This document shows positions 6,153 to 32,963 of a stretch of 39,929 nt of DNA, piece after piece. The translations under genes were made by a program, and so were the position numbers. This DNA is from a virus. The notes below the pieces were generated by a model. It was not told the origin of the DNA. It saw only the letters and a list, made by a program, of their open reading frames with translations, and made no database searches. The stretch is from IMG/VR virus record IMGVR_UViG_3300022707_000821, positions 1 through 39,929 of that record; one strand, written 5' to 3'. Within the stretch, counting starts at the first letter, position 1. Each line of letters begins with the position of its first letter.

Positions 6153-6442
6153 TGATACACCCCATGATTAAGCCTAATGTTGTATACTCTTTTTTTATTT
6201 CAATCGTTTTTTTTATTATGAATTATTTCAGTTTAGATATGGAATTAAGGATTATTATTACGATATTTTCATTTGTTGGATTCATACCGCTTAACTTCGT
6301 TATGGGTGGGATTTTTCTTTGTCATGAAATTACAAAGTATGAGAAAATAAAAAATCTTGAATATGAAGAATGGAATAATGATTTTGAGGGACAGTATAAA
6401 GAAAGAAAAAAAATGCTTGATGAGCTAAGGAGTGAAAAATGA
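6149..6442 (+). CDS. Small membrane protein with two transmembrane helices, 97 aa
   Basis: The ATG at 6149 is used because it overlaps the previous TGA (ATGATG) and GGGGTGG lies just before. An upstream GTG would lack a site. Hydrophobic segments are at about 11-27 and 33-55. The C-terminal 40 residues are charged and helical (EITKYEKIKNLEYEEW). It is followed directly by two more tiny genes, the first also membrane-associated. No family is recognised. Confidence 0.65.
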   Translation: MMIHPMIKPNVVYSFFISIVFFIMNYFSLDMELRIIITIFSFVGFIPLNFVMGGIFLCHEITKYEKIKNLEYEEWNNDFEGQYKERKKMLDELRSEK

Positions 6443-7390: not shown

Positions 7391-7893
7391 ATATACCCGA
7401 TAAGCTAGAAGCAAAGATAAAAAAGCTGCTGGCCCTATCTGAAAATGGAATTGATGGGGAAAAGGAAACAGCAACTAAGTTTTTAAATAACCTGCTTGAT
7501 AAGCATGGTATAAAGCTTGAAGACTTGGACGATTTAAATATATGTAGACATGCATTTTCATACAAAACTAAGATGGAAAAAAGATTGTTATTTCAGATAA
7601 TTAGTTCTGTTATAGGACAAGTAGACACTTATAGAAAACAGGGTGGAAAATCTATATACATTGATTCTACTTACGAGGACTTTCTTGATATTCAAATGAA
7701 ATTTGATGTTTATGGTAGATCATTAAATGAAAATATAGAAATGTTGTATTCTGCCTTTGTTCAGAAGAATAATATATTCAATCCAAACGATAAGCCGAAA
7801 GAGCCGACCGAGGAAGAAATGGAAGAATATGATAACTCGCGAGGCTTTAGAAATAGTATTGATCGTGTTAATGTGAGAATGGGCATAGATTGA
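7387..7893 (+). CDS. DUF2786-like protein, 168 aa
   Basis: The N-terminal 45 residues follow the DUF2786 pattern 'KI.KLLALS..., EA..A......L..K.GI': KIKKLLALSENG, then ETATKFLNNLLDKHGIKLED. The C-terminal part is helical and includes a lysine/proline/glutamate linker. DUF2786 proteins are common in phages and of unknown function. The gene immediately precedes and overlaps terL. Confidence 0.6.
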   Translation: MNIPDKLEAKIKKLLALSENGIDGEKETATKFLNNLLDKHGIKLEDLDDLNICRHAFSYKTKMEKRLLFQIISSVIGQVDTYRKQGGKSIYIDSTYEDFLDIQMKFDVYGRSLNENIEMLYSAFVQKNNIFNPNDKPKEPTEEEMEEYDNSRGFRNSIDRVNVRMGID

Positions 7894-9332
7894 AAACTCT
7901 TCATCAATTAGAATGTGCATACTTTAAGAAGTCCTTTCATGCTTTCTATGTTAGGTGTTTTTCTAAGGTCTTGGTTCCAAGTGGAAAGTATATTGATAAT
8001 TGGCACACTAAATATATATGTGATGTCATGCAGAAGGAAGCAGAGCGAATAATAAGAGGTGAAGAAAAGACAGATGATATTATTATTAATGTCCCTGTTC
8101 GATCTGGTAAATCATTAATCGCCTCTGTTGCCTTTAATGCATGGGTTTGGACTATTGACCCTACTTTTAAAATAGTTACCGCCAGCTATGGCGATATCTT
8201 ATCTAAAAGCCTATCAACAAAAACAAGAGACTTGATTAAATCTGATTGGTATCAAGAAAGATTTGGTCATATCTACCAACTAAAAAAAGATCAAGATACT
8301 AAAGGTTTATTTGAAACCACTAAAGGCGGTTCTCGTTTCGCTACTTCAACCGGTGCGGCTGCCACTGGTATGGGTGGGCACATGATCATTGCAGATGATT
8401 TAATGAACCCTGACGAAGCCAAATCACCTAAAAAAAGAGAAACAGTAAATGAATGGTATGATACAACATTATGGACTAGAACAGATACGCCGGATTTAGT
8501 TTGTAGATTTATTATTATGCAAAGGCTGAGTGATAAAGACTTAACCGGCCATCTATTAGAATTAGGCGGCTATCGTCATATATGCATACCAGCCGAGGCT
8601 AAAGCAAATGTTCAACCGGCAAGCCTTAGAAAGTTCTATAAAGAAGGTCTATTCTTCATTGAAAGATTTACCCGTAAAATATTAGATCAATTCAAAGTAG
8701 CTTTAAGAGAAAGGGGATTTGAGGCCCAGCTTAACCAATCGCCCAAAGTAGCAAGCGGTAATATAATAAACACATCCTTTATTAAATATCTTGATGAGCC
8801 ACCAAAGCCATTAAAGATAATTCAAACAATGGATACCGCCTTTAAAGATGGTGAAGAGAATGATTATAGTGTTTGTATGACATGGTGTTCTTTTAGACAT
8901 CCAGACCGGCCCGATAGAGATTCGTATTATTTAATGCATGTCATGAAGGGAAAGTTTACATTCCCAGACTTAAAGAAAAGAATGCATGAAGTCGCTAAGA
9001 AATTCAAGCCCAGTAAAATAATAATTGAAGATAAGGCCAGCGGTCAATCATTGATTCAAGAATTTGAATTAGATAAATATATAAAAAGAAAACTTTTAAG
9101 AGTCAATCCAGATAGAGACAAGGTAACAAGGGCTCATTCTATTACGGAAATTGTAGAGGATGGCTTTGTTTATTTCCCTTCTACCGGTCATTGGGTTGCT
9201 GGATGTATTGAAGAATTAAGCCTTTTTGATTCAGGTGAGTTTGACGACCAAGTGGATACTTTTGTTTATGCCTTGCAGTATTATAGTAAAAAACTTGGAG
9301 ACCATAGAGAGCCAAAAATTAGAGTACTTTAA
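7890..9332 (+). CDS. terL: Terminase large subunit (TerL), 480 aa
   Basis: The ATPase-nuclease motor that packages DNA through the portal. The Walker A-like loop is VPVRSGKS (residues 68-75) and Walker B is MIIADD (165-170). GAAATGMGG sits between them, as in many phage terminases. The C-terminal RNase H-like nuclease shows D315 (MDTAF), E380/D381 (IIEDKASGQS) and D452/D453 (FDDQVDTFVYAL). The TTG start overlaps the previous TGA, and the length is typical. It acts with TerS (5302) and the portal (10444). Confidence 0.95.
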   Translation: MKTLHQLECAYFKKSFHAFYVRCFSKVLVPSGKYIDNWHTKYICDVMQKEAERIIRGEEKTDDIIINVPVRSGKSLIASVAFNAWVWTIDPTFKIVTASYGDILSKSLSTKTRDLIKSDWYQERFGHIYQLKKDQDTKGLFETTKGGSRFATSTGAAATGMGGHMIIADDLMNPDEAKSPKKRETVNEWYDTTLWTRTDTPDLVCRFIIMQRLSDKDLTGHLLELGGYRHICIPAEAKANVQPASLRKFYKEGLFFIERFTRKILDQFKVALRERGFEAQLNQSPKVASGNIINTSFIKYLDEPPKPLKIIQTMDTAFKDGEENDYSVCMTWCSFRHPDRPDRDSYYLMHVMKGKFTFPDLKKRMHEVAKKFKPSKIIIEDKASGQSLIQEFELDKYIKRKLLRVNPDRDKVTRAHSITEIVEDGFVYFPSTGHWVAGCIEELSLFDSGEFDDQVDTFVYALQYYSKKLGDHREPKIRVL

Positions 9333-15688: not shown

Positions 15689-16110
15689 AAGCAAACCAGC
15701 TAAGGCAAAGAATACAGGTCTTCCAACAAATATTAGGTGATGATACCTGTCTAGGTGTTGACGAGACTTTTGTTTCTAAGGGTTCATGTTGGGCAGAAGT
15801 TAAATCAAGAAATCCCGCCATCAATGATGAACAGTTTCATGATAGGCGAATTGTAGCAGTCAAGCAATATAATATTAAGACTCGCTTTAATATAGGCTTT
15901 TCATTTGAAGAGACCGACATAATTGTTTTTAAAGGGAATGTTTTAAGAATACAGGGTATCACAAATGTTATTGATCATGATTTTCAATTTCAAATAATGT
16001 GCCATCAAATAGAAAGGGACTCTGTGAAATTTGGCGGCCTATTAACTCAGGCGGCCGAGAATATATTTACTCAGGTAGGCGAGCCCGTTTTTGATCAGTT
16101 GGGCGCATAA
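15685..16110 (+). CDS. Head-tail joining protein (SPP1 gp16 / Phage_H_T_join-like), 141 aa
   Basis: Opens ANQLRQRIQVFQQ, the family's 'l..ri.i....', with CWAEVKSRNP near residue 36 where others have 'WA.v.p.s'. The later VKQYNIKTRFN and VFKGNVLRIQGITNV match the 'y.V.iRy....' and 'd.i...g..y.I..v' blocks. It stops the portal channel and accepts the tail. It is coupled to the connector by ATGA. Confidence 0.8.
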   Translation: MKANQLRQRIQVFQQILGDDTCLGVDETFVSKGSCWAEVKSRNPAINDEQFHDRRIVAVKQYNIKTRFNIGFSFEETDIIVFKGNVLRIQGITNVIDHDFQFQIMCHQIERDSVKFGGLLTQAAENIFTQVGEPVFDQLGA

Positions 16111-17764: not shown

Positions 17765-20479
17765 ATGACAGCGAAGTTTTTTAGAGGACTAGCAGACACT
17801 AAATGGTCAAATGATGCTAATTGGTCTTTAAGCTCAGGAGGGCCGAACGACACCACAAAAGCCGTGGCCGGTGATGATGTAACAAATGAAGCCTCTCAGA
17901 TCGTTATTGACACTACAGAGGCCTGCCTATCTTTTACGCAAACTTCAAGCTTTTCTGTAGATATAGACGGTGCTTTAAATGTAAGCGGTGCTCTTTTAAT
18001 ATCAAATATAAACGGATTAGAAGGAACTGGAACAGTAAATGTTCAGGGTAATTTATCTTACACAGACGGAGCAAGCCAAAGTAATACAATTGTATTTACA
18101 ATGGATGGAACAGGTGCGCAAAATTTAGATTGGGGCGGAACTGCATCGGCCATTACTTTTGATCTAAGGATTAATAAGGCAAGTGGTACAGTTACAAATA
18201 TATCTAACATGAACGCAAGCACAACGAGTACGGCAAGATTAAGATTGACTCTTGATGCAGGTACTTTTAATGGTAACGGGTTTGATTGCAAATATTTCAA
18301 TCTTACCATTAATAGCGGTACTTATAATGCTGGTTCTGGCAATACGGAATGGTCAGGTCTTTTAAGTATTACAGGCGGTGTTTTTAATGGTGACACTTCT
18401 TTAATGACTACACCTAACGACCTTAATCAATCAGGTGGAACATTTAACGCAACAAGCGGAACGCTAGAATTCACAGGCGGCGGTAATGTATTTACAATGA
18501 GCGCCGGTACTTTTAATCATAATAGCGGCTTTGTTACCTTTAACGGCAATCAAGGCAATATGGATATTAATGGAAGAATCTTAAATGATTTTACTTCCAA
18601 TATATTAAACCCTATTTCATCTATGGTTTACCTTTCAGACTTTACAACTGTAGGGACATACACTCATCAAAGCGGACATATTAGCTTTACAGGTCGGACT
18701 ATAGATGTACAAGGTGACTTTATTATAAAAGCAACAAGCAATCAAACATCAAGCGGTGTTCATAGAATAAGCGGTAATGCAACGCAAGAATTATTTTCTG
18801 ATAAATTAGGAAGTGAATCAAGAATAAATGGCGGTATTGAATTTGCAAAAACTGGCGGGTCGATAACTTGCTTTGATTTTATTATTTTTGCTGCATCAAC
18901 ATCAAACATTTTAATTTTCACATCCGGTACGGTTGTATTTGATCCAGCTTTTACTTTTGGAGATAGGGGCTTTGCTGCTAACTATGATTGGTCCGGTGGG
19001 CCTAGAATTCCTAATTACTTTGTAAGAAAAGCAAATACGGCCGTTGGATCAACCCTTGTAAGTAATTTAGAAGTAACTAATTTTACAAATGAAGGAATGG
19101 GAGCATTAAGCGGCGCGGGTGTTTTAGATATATCTGGAAATGTTAATTCAGATAATTCAATTACTGGTTCAGCTAGAATTGATTTAACAGGGACAGCAAA
19201 TCAAACATTAAATTGCATTGATTCTTTTGGCGGTGGAGTTTTCGCAATAAACAAACCTTCTGGAATTGTTTCATTAGTAAGCACTTTTCAAAACACCGCG
19301 ACCGGCTCAGATTTTTTCATGGTTGCGGGTACTTTAGATTTAAAAGGTTTTGCTTTTACTGTAAAAGATGAGCTTGTCCAAACAGGCGGTTTAATTAATG
19401 ATACTGTTGGTGGTGGAGTATTCACAATAGGCCGACATGTGGCCACAGCGGGAACTATTACGCTTAATGTATTGTTTGCCGTAACAACAACAAGCGGGGT
19501 AGTTTTTAGCGACTCAGCAGGCTATAATTTAAATATCGGTACATACTGGTTTCAAGGCGCTAATCATTGGGATGTCCAGCAGCTTAATACTTCTTTTACA
19601 AATATGGTTATTGATAAATGTCCTACATGTAATTACTCAGGTACGCAAGATATAGACGGGAAATTAACTGTAATGAGTATGGGTAATTTTCTAAATGGAT
19701 CATTAACTAAATTAGCCGGTGATATGGACGGCGGCGGCGCTCTTACTCAAAATGGCGGCGGTGTAATTAGATTTGATGGAACAACAACGCAAACGGTAAG
19801 CTTTACCGGTATCATGCCAGATATCGAAGTTAATAAATCAAGCGGAACTCTTGTATTCTCAACAGCTCAAAGAATAGTAGCCGGTTATAATGTAATAGCT
19901 GGCCAAGTCGATTGGTTGACTAATCAGGTATCCACTAGCTTTGTAGGTGGCAACAATACATTTACTATTACCTCAAATCTACAGCCTTTTAATAATGTGA
20001 CATTTGATAAGACAGGTTCATCTAAATATACTTTGCTTGATCTAATGCCAATTGCAAACGGCTTAACTATTACAGATTTAGCCGGTAGTTTTGAATTGTC
20101 CGGCTTCTCTGTCGAGGTTCAAGGTGATATATTTGTTGCAGAAACAAGCCTTTTAGGATCAACAATAATTAAGATGACAGGCATTAAAGATGCTATCATT
20201 ACGCAAACTAATACAGATTGGTTTGATTCTGATTTAGTTCTTGAAAAAACCAGTGGACAAGTAGAGCTAGGAAACGACCTAGTATTGCCATTTGATTTCT
20301 TACATAATGATGCAATCTTTTGTACTAATGAGTTTGATCTAACAGCGGCTAATATTACTATTATTGCTAATGCTACATTCAATAAAACACCTGCTTCAAC
20401 ATTAACGGGGACTGTTACCGGTACTGTAAATGATGTTGATGACTGTGAAAAAAAAACGGCTCTTTTTTATGCGGTTTAG
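17765..20479 (+). CDS. Beta-solenoid adhesin-like virion protein, 904 aa (frame 0 product)
   Basis: GAGGG seven bases upstream marks the start. The N-terminus (TKWSNDANWSLSSGG) is the 'W....NWS..' opening of autotransporter-like repeat domains. The body is glycine-, threonine- and asparagine-rich with repeating short strands (NSGTYNAGSG, TGGVFNGDT, QSGGTFNATSG, SAGTFNHNSG), typical of a right-handed beta-solenoid. There is no signal peptide. Near the 3' end nine A residues (20448-20456) form a -1 slip site. Frame 0 then reads only seven more codons to TAG, whereas frame -1 continues for 533 codons. It is probably a displayed host- or surface-binding protein. Confidence 0.75.
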   Translation: MTAKFFRGLADTKWSNDANWSLSSGGPNDTTKAVAGDDVTNEASQIVIDTTEACLSFTQTSSFSVDIDGALNVSGALLISNINGLEGTGTVNVQGNLSYTDGASQSNTIVFTMDGTGAQNLDWGGTASAITFDLRINKASGTVTNISNMNASTTSTARLRLTLDAGTFNGNGFDCKYFNLTINSGTYNAGSGNTEWSGLLSITGGVFNGDTSLMTTPNDLNQSGGTFNATSGTLEFTGGGNVFTMSAGTFNHNSGFVTFNGNQGNMDINGRILNDFTSNILNPISSMVYLSDFTTVGTYTHQSGHISFTGRTIDVQGDFIIKATSNQTSSGVHRISGNATQELFSDKLGSESRINGGIEFAKTGGSITCFDFIIFAASTSNILIFTSGTVVFDPAFTFGDRGFAANYDWSGGPRIPNYFVRKANTAVGSTLVSNLEVTNFTNEGMGALSGAGVLDISGNVNSDNSITGSARIDLTGTANQTLNCIDSFGGGVFAINKPSGIVSLVSTFQNTATGSDFFMVAGTLDLKGFAFTVKDELVQTGGLINDTVGGGVFTIGRHVATAGTITLNVLFAVTTTSGVVFSDSAGYNLNIGTYWFQGANHWDVQQLNTSFTNMVIDKCPTCNYSGTQDIDGKLTVMSMGNFLNGSLTKLAGDMDGGGALTQNGGGVIRFDGTTTQTVSFTGIMPDIEVNKSSGTLVFSTAQRIVAGYNVIAGQVDWLTNQVSTSFVGGNNTFTITSNLQPFNNVTFDKTGSSKYTLLDLMPIANGLTITDLAGSFELSGFSVEVQGDIFVAETSLLGSTIIKMTGIKDAIITQTNTDWFDSDLVLEKTSGQVELGNDLVLPFDFLHNDAIFCTNEFDLTAANITIIANATFNKTPASTLTGTVTGTVNDVDDCEKKTALFYAV
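20448..20456 (+). promoter_or_regulatory. A9 slip site for -1 frameshift
   Basis: Frame 0 reads GAA AAA AAA ACG, so the heptamer A AAA AAA is 20449-20455. A -1 slip gives AAA AAA AAC GGC and enters the frame that runs to 22056. Frame -1 has a TGA at 20446-20448, just before the run, so the switch must occur between there and 20479. GGCTCTT (20458-20464) can pair with AAGAGCC (20534-20540), a possible stimulatory stem. RNA polymerase slippage on nine A could give the same fused product. Confidence 0.65.
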
Positions 20480-22056
20480 CTTTACAAGGTTATTTAGGTG
20501 AAATCTGGTTAAGAAATGACCGATCTTGTGAAGAAGAGCCACTTTTTATTAAGGTGGCTTGTATCACAGACTTTAATTTTACCATCCAATCAGAGTTACA
20601 AGACATTTCAACAATAGGCCAATTAAACAGAGATGATAACTACCGAAAGTTTGAGCCAACTTTTAAGCGTTGGAGTATGTCAATAAATTCTCTTTATATT
20701 GAAGATGATGAGGGCCAAGAAAGGATGAGGCAGGCCATTGATAATGATGAAAGATTGTGGCTTAAAATTATTCCTAGAAATATTCCAAGCGCAGGCGGTT
20801 TAGTTCGTGTTTGGGTTGGCAATGGTCTTGTAACAAGTATTACCCACGGCAACGGTTTACAATCTGTAGTAGGTCAAGGCGTTCAGATAATTGGTACAGG
20901 GCCGCTTGAATCATTAAGGGAAGATGTAACCAACCCTATACAATGTTCTAATATATGTTGCGTTGAATTAAACGAAAGCGTATTCTTATATGATGGGCAA
21001 ACATTTGAAGCACCGCCAGCGCCGGAAGGCTCCACGGGTTTCATAGTTGAAAAATTCTTTGAACCTGTCGAAACTGGAACGGGTGATATAGGAACCATTT
21101 CCCTAAATGCCACGGGAGCGGGTTTAAGTGGGTGCCCTGTTCAAGTTGTTTATAGATATCTATGTGATGATTCCCCATTTGTTCCAGATACAGGAAACCC
21201 ACCTAATGAGCAATTTCAAGAGATAGGGGAAAAAACTACTAATACCCAGCAGCTTGGAATCATTAAAATATTAGAAAAAGAAACAGGTAAAACGGTTAGT
21301 GATACTTTCAGCTATGAAGATTTATGGATTGAATTCAATTTTGTTTTCTTGCCTGCTAATCCTGATTTCATTCTTGATCTGTCACAATTTGGATTAACTG
21401 ATACTTTTATAATTGCTACTTTAACAGAACTTAAAGGGCTTAATATTGATTTCAATAATTTATCTACTCCTGACTTGGAAACTATTGCAGACTTGGAGCT
21501 AGTACATTTCTCAGCCAATCATAATTTATTCGGTCAGTTTGACGCTTCATTGCAAGCCTTTGCAGACACAATAAAACATCTTGATATTTCATTCAACTTT
21601 TTTACAGAGGCTCACGCTTTCGGTGCAATAGTTGGGAGTGGATCGGTAACGCTAGATTTGTATGATAGTAGCTTTAATATTTGGTCTTTCTATTTGAGAG
21701 ATAAATTAAAATCAAAAATCATGAGGGTCAATAATAATACTTATCCTAATGATGCCGCCCTTGGTAATGGGTTTTGGGAAAACATGAAAGGTGATCCAAA
21801 TATTATTACGCAAATAGCTGTTCAATTTCCGCAACTTTGCGAGAACTTTTCTATTCTGGAAGAGCTTGATATTTCAGCTAATGAATTAATACCTAGTGAT
21901 GATATAAGTTTATTAATTGCACAGGTTGCCGCTGATTTAAGTATTACAGTTGCACAAGCCACGCCTATAGTAAAATATGATCCAACCTTTACAAGTACAT
22001 TGCCTATTGATGTATTTGACTTTTTAACACTTGTTAGGAATTGGCTTGATGCCTGA
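20455..22056 (+). CDS. Frame -1 continuation: tail-tube-like domain plus leucine-rich region (fusion about 1430 aa)
   Basis: Reading from AAC at 20455 the frame is open and coding-like (NGSFLCGLALQGYLGEIWLR) before any start codon. The first candidate start, GTG at 20554, has no spaced ribosome site. Residues equivalent to 20660-20900 hold RWSMSINSLYIEDDEGQE and later PRN...GLVRVWVG...VVGQGVQIIGTGPL. This parallels the tail tube gene at 24164 (EWSASVENIYLEADAGQE ... PRDESGAKFFQGS ... MSLTGCG). From about 21350 the sequence is leucine/isoleucine/asparagine-rich like LRRs (LTELKGLNIDFNNLS, IKHLDISFNFF, LEELDISANEL). The tube-like domain may dock the solenoid on the virion. Confidence 0.65.
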   Translation, partial: NGSFLCGLALQGYLGEIWLRNDRSCEEEPLFIKVACITDFNFTIQSELQDISTIGQLNRDDNYRKFEPTFKRWSMSINSLYIEDDEGQERMRQAIDNDERLWLKIIPRNIPSAGGLVRVWVGNGLVTSITHGNGLQSVVGQGVQIIGTGPLESLREDVTNPIQCSNICCVELNESVFLYDGQTFEAPPAPEGSTGFIVEKFFEPVETGTGDIGTISLNATGAGLSGCPVQVVYRYLCDDSPFVPDTGNPPNEQFQEIGEKTTNTQQLGIIKILEKETGKTVSDTFSYEDLWIEFNFVFLPANPDFILDLSQFGLTDTFIIATLTELKGLNIDFNNLSTPDLETIADLELVHFSANHNLFGQFDASLQAFADTIKHLDISFNFFTEAHAFGAIVGSGSVTLDLYDSSFNIWSFYLRDKLKSKIMRVNNNTYPNDAALGNGFWENMKGDPNIITQIAVQFPQLCENFSILEELDISANELIPSDDISLLIAQVAADLSITVAQATPIVKYDPTFTSTLPIDVFDFLTLVRNWLDA

Positions 22057-22915
22057 TTTATTTAATACACATGATATGAATAGACACATGCCCTATATAT
22101 TTGAGGGCAATAAATTGTTGTTTAGCCAAGCGTCAACACAAGATGATTTCTATGAGGATTACGGCTCTAGGTCTAGAATGGGATTAACAAGCAAATCACC
22201 TTTTAGAGCATATAGGGTTTGTGTGGGTGATCTTGATTTAAATGCTGGAACAGTAACCAACATTAAAGAAATAGATTGTTGTGAGCATAAAAATATTTAT
22301 TGCTCTCCATGTGCTTATAGGGATGAAGACGGGAAGATTAATTTTACCTTTATTAAAGAATGGACTCTTGGCAATTCAATGAGTAATTGCAGGGCATATA
22401 AAAGAATTGGTGAAGACTTCGATTCATTGGGTGATATGAAGCATATTAAGCCCGTGATGGGAGTAAGAAGCTATTGCATTACAGAGAACAAGTATTATAG
22501 GGTTGTTGCATCCTCACGGATTGGAAATGTTTATTTAATGGTGTTTAAGAAATCAGATAAAACTATTTCAAAAATACAAATAGGTAATTGCCCATTTATA
22601 AGAAGGGTATCTTTAGAATCTGGAACAAATAATCTATTGGTAACTTATCCAGAATCTAAGAACGGCGCTTATAATTCGGCGGCCACTCATTACACGGAAA
22701 GAATGAACCTAGAAACCCTAGAAACATTTAAAATAGTTGCAGAAGATAAATCTATATATAAATCGACTATATACGGTGATAAGGTGATTTATAGCAAAAG
22801 GGGGCCAAGTCAAGAAAGTTATTCTATGGATTTGAAAATAAGTGAATATTCGCTTACTAGTGGTAAAATCAGGCCCAATATACAATATGTGAGAGAGGTT
22901 CCCAATTATGGCTAA
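22049..22915 (+). CDS. Hypothetical virion-module protein, 288 aa
   Basis: The ATG at 22049 is preferred (AGGA nine bases before) over an upstream in-frame TTG at 22031, and it overlaps the stop of the LRR frame. The sequence has many short beta strands with charged turns, and cysteines (DCCEHKNIYCSPC near 78-90). Repeated 'Y..D.KI.....' segments could form blades or a sandwich. No family is recognised. It lies between the large display protein and the gp10-like gene, so a receptor-binding or accessory role is plausible. Confidence 0.55.
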   Translation: MPDLFNTHDMNRHMPYIFEGNKLLFSQASTQDDFYEDYGSRSRMGLTSKSPFRAYRVCVGDLDLNAGTVTNIKEIDCCEHKNIYCSPCAYRDEDGKINFTFIKEWTLGNSMSNCRAYKRIGEDFDSLGDMKHIKPVMGVRSYCITENKYYRVVASSRIGNVYLMVFKKSDKTISKIQIGNCPFIRRVSLESGTNNLLVTYPESKNGAYNSAATHYTERMNLETLETFKIVAEDKSIYKSTIYGDKVIYSKRGPSQESYSMDLKISEYSLTSGKIRPNIQYVREVPNYG

Positions 22916-24163: not shown

Positions 24164-24595
24164 ATGGCATGTGGAAAAGGTTCAGCGGGTTATAAAGGTA
24201 AGCCGTTTATTTCAACCGATGGGGGAGTTATTTTTTTAACAGTATCAGCCGCTAAGGATATGAGCTTAACAAAAAATATGTCTCCAATCGATGTTACAAA
24301 TTTTGATGGCGTTGATGGATGGAAAGAATTCATTGAAGGTCTTAAAGAGTGGTCAGCTTCCGTAGAAAATATATACCTTGAAGCGGATGCAGGTCAAGAA
24401 GCTATTTTAGGCGGTATCACAGAAGGTACTGAACTTGTATTCCAGTATCGACCAAGAGACGAAAGCGGCGCTAAGTTTTTCCAAGGTTCTGTTTTTGTTA
24501 ATGAATGGAATTTGACAAACGCTTTAGAAGATGCGGTAACGGTTTCCATGAGTTTGACAGGTTGCGGTAAACCTCAAACTTTAACTTTACCATAA
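24164..24595 (+). CDS. Major tail tube protein (TP901-1-like), 143 aa
   Basis: AAGGGG lies before the ATG. The protein has the tail-tube pattern: FLTVSAAKDMSLTKN, then IDVTNFDGVDGWKEFIEGLKEWSASVENIYLE, then a beta C-terminus ending VTVSMSLTGCG. 'D.T..d...w.e.i.g..~ws.s' is the family core. It polymerises around the tape measure to make the tail tube. It is followed by the frameshifted chaperone genes, the standard order in siphophages. Confidence 0.85.
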   Translation: MACGKGSAGYKGKPFISTDGGVIFLTVSAAKDMSLTKNMSPIDVTNFDGVDGWKEFIEGLKEWSASVENIYLEADAGQEAILGGITEGTELVFQYRPRDESGAKFFQGSVFVNEWNLTNALEDAVTVSMSLTGCGKPQTLTLP

Positions 24596-24622: not shown

Positions 24623-24997
24623 ATGGCTAGTATTCAATTAGATAAACCAAGACGCTTAAAGTTTGGCTTCAATGCAATGGAGCATTTGAAGCTACACTTT
24701 GGGTTTAAGAATCCCATGCAAGCATTTGTAGAAATGGAGGAAGGGGATGTTTCAATATTAAAAGCAATCCTAGAATCTTGTTTAGTTGGTGACAATGACG
24801 GATTGAATTCTGTTTTGATTGGCGATCTCATGGATAATTATCTTGATCAATTTGGACTTGATAAATTTCAGGAAGTTCTCAAAGTCGCTATTGAAGAAAG
24901 CGCTTGGTTTAGAGCTGCAAAAAAGCAAGCAGCCAAGGCAGAGAAGGAAGCGAAAGCGAACAAGAAGAAAGCAGAGAAGTTGACCTTGGCGAAGTAA
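24623..24997 (+). CDS. Tail assembly chaperone G, 124 aa (frame 0)
   Basis: GAAAGGAAATTAA precedes the ATG. RLKFGFNAMEHLKLHFG near residues 11-27 is a common start of this chaperone family. The C-terminal region is lysine/alanine-rich. It sits between tail tube and tape measure with a slip site at 24919-24925 giving a longer GT-type product. By analogy with lambda G/GT it coats the tape measure and recruits tube subunits. Confidence 0.85.
   Translation: MASIQLDKPRRLKFGFNAMEHLKLHFGFKNPMQAFVEMEEGDVSILKAILESCLVGDNDGLNSVLIGDLMDNYLDQFGLDKFQEVLKVAIEESAWFRAAKKQAAKAEKEAKANKKKAEKLTLAK
24919..24925 (+). promoter_or_regulatory. Slippery heptamer A AAA AAG for -1 frameshift
   Basis: Frame 0 reads GCA AAA AAG, so A AAA AAG is in register for a -1 slip, the same heptamer used by dnaX. 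Frame -1 is open from 24913 through 25374 and has no ribosome site at its nominal TTG start (25030). This is the conserved tail-chaperone frameshift. Confidence 0.85.
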
Positions 24998-25374
24998 TAG
25001 CACAGTTTAAAGAGGTTTTTGTCGTTGAATTGGGTGGTAATCCTTTGGAGTTTGGGGATTACACACCACATGAAATTAATTTACTTGTTAAGGCTAAGGA
25101 AAATGATTGGCGTATTAGAATGCAAGAAAAAGCTTGGTTTATTTCTTGGATTACCGCGCCTCATGTCAAAAAACCTTTAAAACCTAAACAGATATTTGAT
25201 TATGACAAAATCAAAATAGATGATGAAAAAGATGAGTATGAAAAGTTTGAAGATATGTTCATGAGTAAAGAAGAAAAAAATAAAAAGATGAGTGAAACTA
25301 TTACTAAAAAGTTAATAGAAATTAACGAGAGAAAAAAACAAGATGGCGACAAAATCCCTATTAGTAATACTTGA
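24925..25374 (+). CDS. Tail assembly chaperone T extension (GT fusion about 250 aa)
   Basis: Frame -1 after the slip at 24919-24925. Reading starts ASSQGREGSESEQEESREV, an acidic serine-rich linker, then LGEVIAQFKEVFVVELGG and PLEFGDYTPHEINLLVKAKE. The C-terminal half is charged helix. It would be made only as a fusion to the first 101 residues of G. It overlaps the tape measure start by 32 bases. The position and layout match lambda GT. Confidence 0.85.
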   Translation, partial: ASSQGREGSESEQEESREVDLGEVIAQFKEVFVVELGGNPLEFGDYTPHEINLLVKAKENDWRIRMQEKAWFISWITAPHVKKPLKPKQIFDYDKIKIDDEKDEYEKFEDMFMSKEEKNKKMSETITKKLIEINERKKQDGDKIPISNT

Positions 25375-32161: not shown

Positions 32162-32536
32162 ATGAATATTATTGGACTGAGTGGTGAGCAAATAGTAATG
32201 CTTTTGACGGGATTAGGAGCATTTTTAACAGTTTATAAAACCGGTAGTGCTATACTAAAATCAAGGAAGACTAAGAAAGAAAAACAATTTAATGATAAAG
32301 TAAATAAGATTGTTGAGTTGCAATTAATAGAATATCACAAAGAGGAAATCAGCCTTAGAGATATGAGAAAAAGAGAGTATGAAAAAAAGTTTGATGATCA
32401 TACACAGGAAGTAGATAAATTTATTTCAAAGCTTGCTGATAACGAAGCAAGAGAAAACAAAATGGAGCTAGATATTAATAATCTAGGAAATAAAATAGTT
32501 AACCTTAACCAAAGATTTGAAGACCAAAGGAAATGA
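32162..32536 (+). CDS. Membrane-anchored coiled-coil protein, 124 aa
   Basis: One hydrophobic helix at about residues 10-26 (QIVMLLTGLGAFLTVYK) is followed by a long charged coiled coil with KKE/KxL heptads to the C-terminus. There is no cleavage motif, so it is likely a type II or tail-anchored single-pass protein with a cytoplasmic coil. A phage holin with one helix or a membrane partner of the receiver protein encoded next (2 bp away) are both possible. No family was matched. Confidence 0.6.
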   Translation: MNIIGLSGEQIVMLLTGLGAFLTVYKTGSAILKSRKTKKEKQFNDKVNKIVELQLIEYHKEEISLRDMRKREYEKKFDDHTQEVDKFISKLADNEARENKMELDINNLGNKIVNLNQRFEDQRK

Positions 32537-32537
32537 A

Positions 32538-32963
32538 ATGGATGAAATAATTGAAAGCGATCCCCAAATTTTAGCTATACTTGATGATAACCTTGATGAT
32601 GTTCTTTTTATGGGCAAACAATTACAAGAGCATTATTCAATTTTAAAATTTACAGACATTCAAAAATTTCATGATGCTATGATGACCTGTAGGCCCGATG
32701 TCCTTATTTTAGATTATCGCCTTTATGATGATGGTGAGAACTGCCTTAAAATCATATCCAGATATAAACACCGTATACCAATTATTATGGTAGTCACGGG
32801 CATGTATGACAATAAGCAAGTTATTCTTTCATGTTATAAGGCGGGGGCAATGTCTGTTTTAGATAAAAAGAACCCTAAAGAAATCAAGCGCCAGATTACC
32901 GGCCTTTGGAGAAGCAGAACAAGACTAATCCAAAGACGAGAAACGCAAGTAATGAGGGCTTAA
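32538..32963 (+). CDS. Stand-alone CheY-like receiver domain protein, 141 aa
   Basis: AAAGGAAATGAA sets the ATG at 32538. All receiver hallmarks are present: acidic pair D16/D17, phosphoacceptor D59 in DVLILDYRL, T87 in MVVTG and K110 in SVLDKK, in the order and spacing of CheY. There is no output domain, only a basic C-terminal helix of about 15 residues (WRSRTRLIQRRETQVMRA). It could intercept or mimic a host two-component system. Phages rarely carry such a gene. Its stop overlaps the stop of the minus-strand nuclease gene by four bases. Confidence 0.85.
   Translation: MDEIIESDPQILAILDDNLDDVLFMGKQLQEHYSILKFTDIQKFHDAMMTCRPDVLILDYRLYDDGENCLKIISRYKHRIPIIMVVTGMYDNKQVILSCYKAGAMSVLDKKNPKEIKRQITGLWRSRTRLIQRRETQVMRA

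Follow-up and report, generated by a model that had tools for sequence, protein, structure and literature searches.

A candidate −1 recoding site on nine A residues that may add a second tail-tube-like domain to a fibre-like phage protein

Phage SPP1 and the Listeria phages PSA, A118 and A500 have a programmed frameshift within the gene for the major tail protein, which in SPP1 gives gp17.1 and gp17.1* (PMC8718954, PMC5009743). The outcome is a tail-tube-domain protein in two versions, of which one bears an additional surface domain, made at a fixed ratio (3:1 in SPP1). In the lactococcal 936 phages a frameshift likewise links a tail-tube domain with a module for host binding, as MTP–TpeX. In the neck passage structure of these phages, the neck fibres are believed to consist of three chains, mounted on a six-fold collar (PMC6669499). 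The locus described here, which lies in a 39,929-base IMG/VR record of an uncultured tailed phage (the whole of this stretch was analysed and is referred to as the window), would resemble both: two reading frames meet at a run of nine A (A9), and a frameshift there would give a fibre-like protein with and without a tail-tube-like domain. It differs from the SPP1 and Listeria systems in domain order, as theirs have the tail-tube domain first and the decoration C-terminal, whereas here the fibre-like protein comes first and the tail-tube domain is added, and in that the tail-tube homologue is a second and separate one rather than the main tail gene. The order is also the reverse of that in MTP–TpeX, where TpeX is C-terminal; no sequence relation to that system was found, and host binding, a feature of the 936 module, is a putative role for the present fibre. 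In Orsay virus, recoding yields the fibre in free form and also, as CP-delta, linked covalently to a building block of the virion (PMC7565637), which is the outcome proposed here, but this is an RNA virus with the capsid protein first and the fibre second, and the proteins are unrelated.

The lambda-type tail chaperones G/GT are similar in that a −1 slip takes place on an A-rich site in the same operon, but gene and product are different and the chaperones are absent from the virion. In Citrobacter tssM1, Thermus dnaX and Shigella mxiE, runs of nine or more A suffice by themselves for protein products of two lengths, with no conserved stimulators (PMC4256274, PMC1088944), although these cases of transcriptional slippage concern cellular genes. 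An A11 run in tssM gives about 20% slippage (PMC4256274), and nine-A runs are selected against in the coding sequence of many bacteria (PMC1088944). No phage virion fusion made by slippage of this type was found in the literature searched, and the open-licence literature yielded no report of the reverse order, in which the surface protein comes first and a tail-tube domain is added. Known phage tail frameshifts place a C-terminal decoration onto an abundant tail protein, whereas here the anchor comes last; if the reading is correct, this would be a further way for a phage to set the share of a surface protein that is fixed to the particle.

The first half of the proposed fusion is a frame-0 ORF of 904 aa (17765–20479, + strand), which reads GAA AAA AAA ACG GCT CTT TTT TAT GCG GTT TAG across the A9 run (20448–20456, +), its stop codon (TAG, 20477–20479, +) lying 21 nt past the run. 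The second half is a frame −1 coding region of 535 codons (20449–22056, +), which overlaps the first ORF, is preceded by a TGA at 20446–20448, has no further stop until 22056 and is without a usable start of its own. The coordinates, the A9 run and both frames had been given in an earlier note on this DNA, and all proved correct on rechecking. At the end of the first ORF, A AAA AAA (20449–20455) follows the slippery pattern X XXY YYZ in the correct phase, as it does in a related contig, L003; it is a standard −1 heptamer. A −1 slip on it is predicted to join 897 and 533 residues into a protein of 1430 aa with the junction ...DDCEKK/NGSFLCG. Runs of nine A are scarce in the window, where 1 was observed on both strands together against 13.2 ± 5.4 expected from dinucleotide shuffles, and the relatives are likewise below expectation; within the structural genes of the L003 contig there are 2, both at frame junctions (the fusion site and the tail chaperone). 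We consider it likely that the two frames form one recoded gene, in which −1 recoding on A9 would produce a 1430-aa fibre-plus-anchor fusion besides the free fibre.

L003 is a 37-kb contig whose tail tube protein is 71% identical to that of the window. It has a frame-0 ORF of 665 aa and an A9 run at 6275–6283 with phase and flanks as in the window, followed likewise after 21 nt by a TAG (6304–6306). Its frame −1 protein is 53% identical to that of the window over 534 residues, the changes between the two being mostly at third codon positions, and the longest DNA identity is the 15-nt stretch TGAAAAAAAAACGGC. In a second relative, L010, with a tail tube protein 68% identical to the window's, the anchor protein is encoded separately, from an ATG of its own (7425–8705), and no fibre gene stands before it. 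The A9 fusion arrangement is kept in two of the two genomes that bear the fusion, the genes being separate in L010. This comparison of the A run among related phages, with the same run, phase and stop position in L003 and a separate ATG gene in L010, supports the claim of the earlier note that slippage on A9 joins the frames. Scans of viral and genome contigs for further relatives gave only these two and the more distant L002, which is related by its capsid protein and has no match to the tail-tube-like domain of the anchor (TTP2). The TTP2 profile was unmatched in L008, a Rokubacteriota match; neither half of the fusion matched named phages, and the anchor was unmatched in plasmids.

The real sequence might instead hold ten A, which would make a plain in-frame fusion, with A9 as an assembly error or as one phase of a tract whose length shifts within the population by replication slippage. 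A run of this length is prone to error and mutates very readily, and a systematic error shared by both contigs is conceivable because the only two with this arrangement, the window and L003, are metagenome assemblies, which also limits the case for recoding. These contigs are, however, diverged and come from different samples, and they have exactly nine A in equal phase with the frame-0 stop in an equal place. Comparison of the structural genes of the two showed no other broken frame, and the tail-chaperone slip sites of these genomes read as expected. We regard the ten-A explanation as unlikely. An assembly error confined to one contig was rejected as insufficient, given the identical run and phase in L003.

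Alternatively, the halves could be two separate proteins, with translation of the anchor beginning at the GTG at 20554 or at a rare start, for example the conserved Ile codon of position 20503, and possibly linked to termination at the TAG at 20477. The anchor is a separate gene in L010, and an Ile codon stands at codon 19 both in the window (ATC 20503) and in L003 (ATT). In frame −1 no ATG, GTG or TTG occurs ahead of GTG 20554, which lies 36 codons in and is the first standard start. Its ribosome site is weak, in agreement with the earlier observation that the frame lacks one at its first GTG: the duplex energy is −2.1 kcal/mol, against −4 to −9 for most genes of the window. L003 has GTT at this place and no start codon before 6420, and starting at the GTG would cut off the conserved N-terminal strands of the tail-tube domain. 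A separate start at GTG 20554, being neither conserved nor provided with a good ribosome site, was accordingly rejected. Between A9 and this GTG, window and L003 agree in 16 of 31 residues in frame −1, against 6/30 and 9/30 in the other frames; none of 20,000 column permutations gave a frame −1 agreement as high, and 11 of 19 identical residues have synonymous codon differences. Because the stretch is conserved as protein in frame −1 only, with no permutation matching it, the comparison argues that it is translated in this frame, and the conservation lies upstream of both candidate starts. Separate initiation is in our view very unlikely. An out-of-frame ATG at 20469–20471, near the place of the L010 anchor-gene start and one base off frame, is possibly a relic of a lost anchor start codon.

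The loss of a start codon relative to L010 might suggest that the anchor half has been decaying as a pseudogene since a gene fusion, but this is hardly credible given some 535 codons without a stop in both genomes, 53% protein identity, a dominance of third-position changes and a conserved A run.

With −1 recoding at A9 as the preferred reading, the shifted protein would continue into the second tail-tube-like domain, TTP2 (20455–20916, +; PHROG_1407/PF06199), the probable anchor, and then into a C-terminal region with a weak leucine-rich-repeat signal (20917–22053, +). PHROG_1407 is matched over the N-terminal ~160 residues of the frame −1 protein at E 8e-12 (3e-15 for L003 and 5e-5 for L010), and the match to PF06199 falls just under the cut-off. 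TTP2 is 26% identical to the phage's own tail tube protein (gene 24164; E 2e-12), whose start, MACGKGSAGYKG, aligns at SFLCGLALQGYLG, a few residues past the slip point, and the N-terminal residues CG...GY.G of the anchor coincide with those that open the tail tube protein, precisely at the junction. A structure model of the region, itself weak, has mainly tail tube and neck proteins as its best fold matches. By homology, the N-terminus of the anchor is a relative of the tail tube protein, and the second in this phage besides the main tail tube gene. The earlier proposal that the downstream half is a virion anchor gains from this, since a frame −1 protein that begins with a second tail-tube-like domain makes the anchor a good reading. 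The fusion gene follows those for head closure and precedes those for tail completion, so its product would probably sit in the neck or in the tail tube.

Gly, Thr, Ser and Asn are abundant in the frame-0 protein, which is also strand-rich. Compared with L003, its N- and C-terminal parts are conserved and its middle has diverged, a pattern like that of fibres and adhesins, and it is probably a large fibrous surface protein. It had been described as a beta-solenoid and adhesin; the composition fits, and the L003 protein shows a weak periodicity of 20–22 residues, but no match was found in Pfam, PHROG or PDB, and the structure model is too poor (pLDDT 34.8) to bear this out, so that the beta-solenoid stays presumptive.

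In the mechanism that we propose, the majority of ribosomes, or of nine-A transcripts, would give the free 904-aa fibre-like protein ending just past A9. A fraction would shift −1 at A9, by a ribosome slip on A AAA AAA or by RNA polymerase adding one A, and would yield the 1430-aa fusion, whose C-terminal part consists of the second tail-tube-like domain and extra domains. The tail-tube-like domain would build into the tail or neck as part of a six-fold ring, holding the N-terminal fibre on the virion; because it is the anchor domain that would fix the fibre there, the slip frequency would set the ratio of free to anchored fibre, with the free form in excess. The conserved A9, the frame break, the frame-0 stop, the missing start, the protein conservation across the junction and the tail-tube homology are read from the sequence; that the shift occurs, its rate and kind, where the fusion sits in the virion and that the fibre binds a host are inferred. 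Free chains may assemble with anchored ones into mixed fibres or may be shed. A more speculative idea, prompted by the neck passage structure of 936 phages (PMC6669499), is that the slip frequency is matched to a symmetry mismatch: three-chain fibres stand on a six-fold ring with one anchored and two free chains each, so that recoding of about one-third would give 6 anchored and 12 free chains. We hold this to be rather unlikely; if true, recoding would set the make-up of mixed fibres and would not merely add a decoration.

Whether slippage on A9 would be ribosomal or transcriptional appears about even. For their tail chaperones these phages also rely on A-rich sites, which is consistent with the ribosomal option, and a run of at least nine A where such runs are scarce, in the window and in the relatives, is consistent with the transcriptional one. 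Of the ribosomal −1 slip claimed earlier, slippage on A9 is upheld, but not the ribosome as its sole agent. A possible stimulator is a hairpin just 3′ of the slip site (20458–20540, +). The 7-bp stem GGCTCTT/AAGAGCC of the earlier note is present and extends to 14 continuous pairs (20458–20471 with 20527–20540) and then 5 more; it has a folding energy of −27.2 kcal/mol (z −3.4 against dinucleotide shuffles), and about 0.6% of the 90-nt windows across the structural region reach an equally stable fold. It begins 2 nt past the heptamer, where the usual spacing of a stimulator is wider (5–9 nt downstream), and no counterpart exists in L003 (z −0.7). A role of the stem as a conserved stimulator is thus not supported; it may help slippage in the window without being a conserved part. 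No Shine-Dalgarno-like stimulator was seen by eye upstream of A9 in the window or in L003.

According to a suggestion relayed in a review, such joins arise where a mobile domain has landed out of frame and recoding is subsequently selected for (PMC5009743). The three genomes L010, L003 and the window are in keeping with such a history. If the recoding reading is correct, these close relatives would capture the passage from genes that stand apart to a recoded fusion.

The structural genes follow the order terminase, portal, protease, major capsid protein, connectors, fusion region, tail completion, tail terminator, tail tube (24164), chaperones and tape measure. The canonical tail tube gene (24164–24595, +), the relative of TTP2, encodes 143 aa and is followed by the tail-chaperone pair (24623–25374, +) with its usual −1 site, GCA AAA AAG. 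The chaperone site is found in three of three genomes, as A AAA AAG in the window (24623–25374), A9G in L003 (10471–11207) and A8G in L010 (10460–11217). The frameshift at the fusion gene had been thought to occur there rather than at the tail chaperone; as the phage has a chaperone slip site too (24623 ff., A AAA AAG), the A9 fusion site is instead an additional one. In L010, A9 and A8 runs lie close together (15891–15923) within a tail-gene ORF common to L003. Directly after the anchor gene of the window stands a 294-aa ORF (22031–22915), which is about 42% identical to L003 in the main matched stretch and has no PHROG or Pfam match. Near the end of the tail genes is a 148-aa protein (32517–32963) with a response-regulator receiver domain (Pfam Response_reg, E 3.7e-10), an unusual cargo for a phage.
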